64,000 nucleotides of DNA from Candidatus Latescibacterota bacterium (lineage in GTDB: Bacteria > Latescibacterota > UBA2968 > SICM01). A program made the position numbers and the translations under genes. Shown in pieces: positions 10,501-12,056 of the stretch. The stretch covers positions 1 through 64,000 of the forward strand of contig SICM01000002.1 of the NCBI GenBank assembly GCA_009694805.1. The letters are read 5' to 3'. How positions within the stretch are numbered: position 1 is the first letter of the stretch; each line of letters starts with the position of its first letter. A model generated the notes under the pieces. The model was not told the DNA's origin. It ran no database searches and saw only the letters and a program-made list of their open reading frames with translations.

Positions 10501-10535
10501 ATAGCCCCGGAGGAACCCTCTTTCGGGGCTATTTT
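10501..10535 (+). terminator. Rho-independent terminator
   Basis: ATAGCCCCG ... CGGGGCTAT followed by TTTT, just after the aminotransferase stop. Confidence 0.75.
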
Positions 10536-10613
10536 CATGTCTTTTTTTACTTTTGAGGATACTTTCTTCCCGGCTGCGCATCAAGAGATATAGACGCGTC
10601 GAAAAAAGAGGTC

Positions 10614-12056
10614 GTGCTCCGGAGAATACCCTTGGCTTCCGAAGAACCACCTGCCGACCGGGACCTGATCGAGCGGACCCGGGCCGGGGATCAGAGGGCG
10701 TTTGCCGTCCTGGTCGGACGCTATGGGCGGGAGGTGTATGCGCGCCTCGCCCGGCGGGTCCGCTACCCGGAGGATGCTGAAGATCTCTTACAGGAGGTCT
10801 TCGTCAAGGCATACACGCAACTCGGTCAGTTGAAGGACAGCGATCGGTTCGAAGCGTGGCTCGGGGCCATCGCGGACAATGAGGCGCGGATGTGGTACCG
10901 TCGTCGGTACGTGCAACTCCGGCTGGAGGAGATGTTCGAAGTCCAGGGGATTTTGGAGGCGGATGCGACGGGCGATGAGGCCGAAATGCGGAGGCTTCAG
11001 AGGACGGTCCAGGAGGCGCTGCGGTCTCTGACCGAAGCCCACCGGCAGGTGATCGTCCACCACTACTTCAAAGGACACACCTACCTGGAGACCGCTGATC
11101 TGCTGGGCCTTGATGTGGAGAGGGTGCGGAGCCGTCTCCAGAAAGCGAGACGGCGGATGAGAGAGGAGATCACTTCAATGAACGGTCAGAAGACGCAACC
11201 ACAGACGTTTGAACTGGGCCGGGAGGAGCTCCACGTCCTGCGCTGGGCAAAGACGTTCGCCAGCCGGGATGAAAGTCGGCTTAAACTTCAGGGGATCTGT
11301 CTCAATGTCGGAGGAAAGATGGTCGCCACCGATGGACACCGGATGCTGGTCTGGACCTCGGAACGACTGGAGAAGATCGCCACCCAGGTCATCCTGGGGC
11401 CATGGTTTGAGATGGAGATCCCCGAAGCGGAACGAGGGACGTTGACCATCGAAGAACAGAGAGCCGTGATTCGCATCCCAGGTCAAGAGGACCGGGTCGC
11501 CGGGATCATCCCGGGGTCTTACGTGAACTATAATGCGGTCATTCCGACGACCTGGTCCCTCCATGCGACCGTCGCGGCAGGGGAGCTGTTGAAGGCCGTC
11601 GATCTGATCGCGGATCACCTCGCGCCCAGACATCCGACAGACCCGGAAGGGGCGTATCAGTACGTTCCAATAGTGGAAATTAGACTGTCCAGCGCGGAGC
11701 AGAGCCTTTCGTTGGTTACGACGCGGGAGATGGGCTATTATGGGCCGCCGGATGCGGAGGGGAAGCGGCAGGACTGTTCTACAGAGGAGGTCTTACGGCT
11801 GACCGGTGACACGCCTTTTTGGATTTTCACCTCTTCAATCCAGGCGCAGATCGAGACAGAGGGATCTTCGGAGGAAATTTTTCGGATCGGAGTGAACCCC
11901 ACCTATCTGCGGGATATGGTTCGTGCGCTGGGTTTCGACCCGGACGAGGCACTGGAACTCCGGTTCATCGACCCGGTCAAGGCGATCCTGTTTTCGCCCG
12001 TCCGTCACGCGGACCGGAAGGGCCTGTTGATGCCGCTGAGGATGAGGAAGGATTAG
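10614..12056 (+). CDS. ECF-type sigma-70 factor fused in frame to a sliding clamp (DnaN domain 2-3)-like C-terminal region
   Basis: N-term region 2 (LIERTRAGDQRAFAVLVGRYG...PEDAEDLLQEVFVKAY) and region 4 (LTEAHRQVIVHHYFKGHTYLETADLLGLDVERVRSRLQKARRR); C-term FASRDESRLKLQGICLNVGGKMVATDGHRM, IIPGSYVNYNAVIP, NPTYLRDMVRALG, LLMPLRM. Start uncertain (GTG 10614 or TTG 10632). Confidence 0.85.
   Translation: MLRRIPLASEEPPADRDLIERTRAGDQRAFAVLVGRYGREVYARLARRVRYPEDAEDLLQEVFVKAYTQLGQLKDSDRFEAWLGAIADNEARMWYRRRYVQLRLEEMFEVQGILEADATGDEAEMRRLQRTVQEALRSLTEAHRQVIVHHYFKGHTYLETADLLGLDVERVRSRLQKARRRMREEITSMNGQKTQPQTFELGREELHVLRWAKTFASRDESRLKLQGICLNVGGKMVATDGHRMLVWTSERLEKIATQVILGPWFEMEIPEAERGTLTIEEQRAVIRIPGQEDRVAGIIPGSYVNYNAVIPTTWSLHATVAAGELLKAVDLIADHLAPRHPTDPEGAYQYVPIVEIRLSSAEQSLSLVTTREMGYYGPPDAEGKRQDCSTEEVLRLTGDTPFWIFTSSIQAQIETEGSSEEIFRIGVNPTYLRDMVRALGFDPDEALELRFIDPVKAILFSPVRHADRKGLLMPLRMRKD

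Follow-up and report, generated by a model that had tools for sequence, protein, structure and literature searches.

The window analysed here, a stretch of 64,000 nucleotides, spans positions 1-64,000 of the forward strand of contig SICM01000002.1 (assembly GCA_009694805.1, Candidatus Latescibacterota bacterium). At 10614-12056 it encodes a 480-residue protein that joins an extracytoplasmic function (ECF) sigma factor to domains of the DNA sliding clamp. The upstream region and the sigma part contain the following features.

10501..10532, + strand: intrinsic terminator serving the preceding gene, with a stem of 14 pairs, a 4-nt loop and a T tail
10557..10582, + strand: ECF-type promoter-like element, GGATACTTT-N13-CATC
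10614..12056, + strand: gene for the ECF sigma factor-clamp domain fusion (480 aa, GTG start)
10710..10907, + strand: sigma region 2, residues 33-98 (Sigma70_r2, PF04542, 2.2e-13)
10914..10937, + strand: start of the sigma2-sigma4 linker, QLRLEEMF, residues 101-108, resembling a clamp-binding motif (CBM)
11004..11165, + strand: sigma region 4, about residues 131-184 (PF08281/PF04545)

The terminator isolates the fusion gene from its upstream neighbour, with the caveat that shuffled versions of the region contain 1.1 sites of this kind on average. The genes downstream are convergent, the neighbour genes differ from family to family, and none of them appears to encode an anti-sigma factor, either in the window or in the other families of this fusion. 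The reading frame 10614..12056 contains no internal stops. The original prediction, made from the letters of this DNA, had described an uninterrupted frame with sigma regions 2 and 4, a terminator at 10501, a solitary gene followed by convergent ones and no anti-sigma gene, and each of these points was borne out. In addition to the Pfam match in region 2, region 4 is matched by Sigma70_r4_2 (residues 131-182, 2.5e-12) and the sigma part by TIGR02937 (6.6e-27). Regions 2 and 4 are present and regions 1.1 and 3 are absent, which is the ECF arrangement of sigma-70 domains.

The first residue of the linker segment QLRLEEMF, Q101, is invariant across the fusion family. However, similar motifs (QISL and QVAF) occur in two other extended ECF factors of the same class, so the motif is not specific, and a CBM acting in cis from the sigma linker is kept here only as an idea.

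The conserved upstream element

The pattern [GC]GA[TC]ACTTT-N13-C[AG]TC is common to the upstream regions of families f1, f2, and f4, with the same spacing and with no neighbouring genes in common. Its family forms are GGATACTTT or CGACACTTT, followed by N13-C[AG]TC; family f3 has only the -35-like half. In shape and spacing the element matches ECF promoters. The exact form has a single match in the genome of the window, ahead of the fusion gene, and even with one mismatch allowed the expectation in the window is 0.02. The f2 form occurs once in each of nine f2 genomes, ahead of the gene or its remnant, and was not found in G003, a genome without the fusion gene. An ECF-type element that is conserved and found once in its own genome, in front of the gene, suggests that the fusion might be autoregulated from this predicted promoter.

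A search for further targets with one mismatch allowed gave few matches, which only modestly exceeded the reversed-pattern control and were missing from some genomes; it revealed no target gene common to the families. One of the matches in the genome of the window lies ~31 nt before the ATG at position 1558 of contig C231 (locus L164), which starts a helicase-like gene with a P-loop; this gene is absent from 7 of the 8 relatives tested.

Fold and residues of the clamp module

The C-terminal part of the protein contains two clamp domains and the segments that correspond to the partner-binding pocket of the Escherichia coli beta clamp.

11199..11549, + strand: clamp domain 2, about residues 196-312, with the second channel helix deleted
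11328..11345, + strand: TDGHRM at residues 239-244, which corresponds to T172-L177 of the E. coli beta clamp, in pocket subsite I
11550..12053, + strand: clamp domain 3, about residues 313-480 (from Pfam, the AlphaFold model, and profile-profile comparison)
11628..11822, + strand: domain 3 stretch with family-specific insertions, about residues 339-403
11895..11906, + strand: N428-Y431, which corresponds to N320/Y323 of the E. coli clamp, in pocket subsite II
12024..12041, + strand: LLMPLR at residues 471-476, which corresponds to V360-R365 of the E. coli clamp, in pocket subsites I and II

Taken alone, the C-terminal 292 residues match the dnaN family TIGR00663 (6e-11). The C-terminal part also matches PHROG 947, annotated as "processivity factor" (8.5e-14), the beta clamps of the PDB by sequence (2.5e-4), and DNA_pol3_beta_3 (PF02768), the last at 7e-5, which is under the curated Pfam cut-off. 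Over 235 columns, comparison of the fusion-family profile with a DnaN alignment gives a probability of 99.3% (E=4e-20). The module as modelled by AlphaFold (pLDDT 85.2, pTM 0.83) points to the same fold: beta clamps make up all 50 of the 50 PDB matches listed for it, the best at E=1.8e-16. Thus, the module has the fold of DnaN domains 2 and 3, and the DnaN hallmark motifs had been placed correctly in the original prediction. The absence of domain 1, also proposed there, follows from the gap of only ~12 residues between sigma region 4 and domain 2; the protein does not have the three-domain organization of DnaN. In the full-length AlphaFold model (pTM 0.57), the linker has a pLDDT below 50 and the module is not confidently placed relative to the sigma part.

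To follow individual residues, 18 fusion modules were aligned with the DnaN proteins of E. coli and of Latescibacterota, and the list of pocket residues in the beta clamp was taken from PMC11139829. In E. coli numbering, R152, G174, N320, M362, and P363 are present in 18 of 18 modules, R365 in 17, and T172 in 15; L177 is present as Leu or Met, and in 16 of the 18 modules Y323 is Tyr or Phe. Between lineages, H175 varies among His, Ala, and Ser, and R176 between Arg and Ile, while V247 is Val or Ala (Ala in family f3). Judged by sequence, the partner-binding (CBM) cleft is kept and largely intact, although some lineages carry substitutions at H175, R176, and V247. Among the positions conserved in DnaN, 9 of 12 in the pocket are retained in all four lineages versus 24 of 79 elsewhere (Fisher p=0.007), a comparison that rests on about four independent lineages. 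Some of this retention may reflect the needs of folding.

The features that allow a clamp to close around DNA are missing from these proteins. The ring-interface residues I272 and L273 are replaced in 18 of 18 modules by Asp, Glu, or Pro and by His, Gln, or Phe, respectively; the channel residues R268 and R269 are lost and E304 is replaced by Ala or Gly in all of them. Domain 2 has lost its second channel-lining helix in all lineages, and the inner (channel) helices are mostly neutral to acidic. Neither the ring interface of DnaN nor its basic, helix-lined DNA channel is therefore found in the modules, whereas DnaN of the same phylum retains the features that they have lost. The insertion stretch of domain 3 contains the invariant residues R339, H340, Y350, P352, R371, G374, and W403 (R339 is found in 17 of 18 in a larger member set). 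With the cleft kept and the ring and channel features lost, the module fits a peptide-binding regulatory domain, not a ring that encircles DNA.

Distribution and conservation

When 64 genomes of the phylum, 47 from the class of the window and 17 from other classes, were searched with a profile, the fusion was found in 24 of the 47, in four families and always in frame with the sigma part; it is absent from all 17 genomes of the other Latescibacterota classes. This search for homologs with both domains had been among the checks proposed with the original prediction, as had the comparison of the C-terminal region with DnaN. In a whole-genome search, relatives yielded full-length copies of the fusion with identities of 37-55%, and it is found on the single-contig chromosomes OX638329.1, OY282352.1, and OX638377.1. 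The fusion-bearing records are named Latescibacterota, and some are labelled Gemmatimonadota. A contig scan with a single peptide pattern picks up close relatives only, and other phyla may still carry the fusion.

An assembly or frameshift artefact, considered from the outset as the way in which the fusion could turn out to be spurious, is ruled out by the unbroken genes in relatives, including those on single-contig chromosomes. Phage or plasmid origin was likewise rejected: no relatives of the module were found in viral contigs or phage records, and no place in plasmid records covers at least 80% of the fusion. The dN/dS values are 0.13-0.22 for the sigma part and 0.17-0.27 for the clamp module; therefore, both parts are under purifying selection. 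There are also signs of decay. In G036, the fusion gene (L002/L041) has an in-frame TAG inside the module, and G017 has only a broken remnant (G017:C101), which adjoins a preserved promoter element; the fusion may therefore be in the course of loss in some lineages.

A separate DnaN scores above the family cut-off in 53 of 59 relatives. Because these relatives have a separate full-length DnaN, the fusion is not the replicative clamp, and the idea that the module serves as the sole clamp of its genome was rejected. Full-length dnaN was not found in the assembly of the window itself (G000; completeness 92%), which is probably an assembly gap.

Function of the extension

Sigma factors and sliding clamps are parts of separate machines, and the established example of clamp-driven sigma transcription is that of phage T4. 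In T4 late transcription, as here, a sigma-family protein works with a protein of the clamp fold (gp55 and gp33 with gp45), but these are separate proteins, the clamp is complete and encircles DNA, and the CBM lies on the sigma side (PMC7892883, PMC2988020). In the fusion, it is the sigma factor that bears the receptor cleft, the ring features are lost, and to judge by its residues the module appears not to be a DNA-encircling clamp of the gp45 type. The module resembles DnaN in the fold of domains 2 and 3 and in its partner-binding cleft; it differs from DnaN in lacking domain 1, the ring interface, and the basic channel, in its fusion to a sigma factor, and in the insertions added to domain 3. 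E. coli beta*, a short DnaN product of domains 2-3, is likewise a clamp without domain 1 but has no sigma factor attached. Some MerR-type regulators carry a DnaN domain annotation and, like the fusion, join a transcription regulator to clamp domains, but MerR is not a sigma factor. Neither beta* nor the MerR-DnaN proteins were found in the open-licence literature searched.

Known ECF factors include some that have a C-terminal extension but lack an anti-sigma factor, and in these the sigma factor is usually regulated by the extension; ECF41, ECF42, and ECF238 have such built-in regulators, and the extension of ECF41 contacts the sigma2-sigma4 linker (PMC8999054). The protein described here has the same plan, with a domain fused behind sigma regions 2 and 4 and no anti-sigma factor, and its extension is conserved throughout the family, without a cognate anti-sigma gene. 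However, no described extension comes from a replication clamp. DnaN and the sliding clamp go unmentioned in the ECF reviews (including PMC8999054), and no sigma-clamp fusion was found in literature searches, which covered open-licence papers and hence were not exhaustive; this agrees with the original prediction, to which no such fusion was known.

The class of the window is rich in ECF factors with long C-terminal extensions (for example, L186, L187, L191, and L192), which include TPR repeats, a 3-keto-disaccharide hydrolase domain, and others. One protein (L188; G032:C244:7300-9900) fuses an ECF sigma factor to FliG_C, a flagellar rotor domain (PF01706, 5.6e-32). The sigma-clamp fusion is one striking member of this wider habit.

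The original prediction suggested that the protein could be a covalent version of clamp-coupled transcription, perhaps as a two-domain trimer or within the DnaN ring. On this reading the module, as a trimer similar to PCNA or gp45 or as a subunit of the DnaN ring, would slide on DNA together with its sigma factor. The in-frame fusion of a sigma factor to a clamp module stands, the trimeric clamps do have two domains per subunit, and T4 gp45-gp55 offers a working case of clamp-activated sigma transcription whose authors expected further natural instances (PMC7892883). A sliding function is nevertheless very improbable: the interface positions I272/L273 are replaced throughout, R268/R269 are gone, E304 is Ala or Gly, domain 2 lacks channel helix 2, and the channel helices are mostly neutral to acidic, while genuine DnaN of the same phylum keeps these features. 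This argues against both the trimer and the place in the DnaN ring. Alternatively, the module might be a generic protein-interaction or structural domain with ligands unrelated to replication, comparable to the TPR extensions. The same class does fuse its ECF factors to TPR, FliG_C, and other domains, and the family-specific insertions of domain 3, with their invariant residues, could be the true binding surface; the selective retention of the CBM cleft speaks against this reading, which we regard as rather unlikely.

A further suggestion concerns the number of products and is compatible with the best explanation given below. It centers on a single codon at the junction.

11178..11180, + strand: junction ATG (M189), preceded at 9-11 nt by GGAG, a candidate start codon for a free 292-aa module

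Besides the full fusion, this codon might start a free 292-aa module that acts as a partner, competitor, or inhibitor. The ATG is invariant in all members amid an otherwise variable stretch, and GGAG precedes it by 9-11 nt in every member even though the codon register differs between families; its Shine-Dalgarno sequence surpasses that of the sigma start, and in 14 of 17 genes no other in-frame ATG has a stronger one. However, codon resampling that preserves the amino acids often gives equally strong sites (0.08-0.52 per lineage; combined p ~0.15 by Fisher's method, computed from the per-lineage values), synonymous variation is not clearly depressed, and the same Met with a Shine-Dalgarno sequence recurs in several extended ECF factors whose extensions are unrelated. 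After these comparisons the internal start was downgraded from a main claim, and a second product appears unlikely. Other extended ECF factors of the class (L119, L120, L124, L127, L128, L131, and L135) also have an in-frame ATG behind a Shine-Dalgarno-like sequence at the junction of sigma part and extension, which reflects either an internal start that they have in common or a preference for certain residues where region 4 ends.

The explanation favoured here, with moderate confidence, is that the protein is a solitary ECF sigma factor with a peptide-binding regulatory extension derived from clamp domains 2 and 3, through which it would sense or dock replication or repair proteins. The extension would no longer form a ring or hold DNA but keeps its cleft for the CBM (consensus QLxLF) of polymerases, the clamp loader, and repair proteins, and the cleft might thus serve as an on-board receptor. 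Either a replication or repair protein with a CBM or a CBM-like stretch within the sigma factor could occupy it, and its occupancy might alter the ability of sigma regions 2 and 4 to join core RNA polymerase. In this way the extension would substitute for the missing anti-sigma factor, and the sigma factor would drive its own promoter. The proposal of control through the cleft draws on the usual role of extensions in known ECF factors (PMC8999054) and on the conservation of the cleft; by that analogy, the extension may control sigma activity. A link between the sigma factor and replication proteins is possible, but it would run via the cleft and not via the encircling of DNA. It is possible, though on balance doubtful, that the cleft competes with DnaN for CBM proteins and that transcription is thereby switched on or off by polymerases, clamp loader, or mismatch-repair proteins that are free or have been displaced.

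If true, such competition with DnaN would provide a direct molecular link in bacteria from the status of the replisome to RNA polymerase. A conserved fusion on bacterial chromosomes that has been stripped of the ring and has kept the cleft is a compact test case for how RNA polymerase could directly sense replication or repair status, and it indicates that the regulatory extensions of ECF sigma factors can be recruited from replication proteins.
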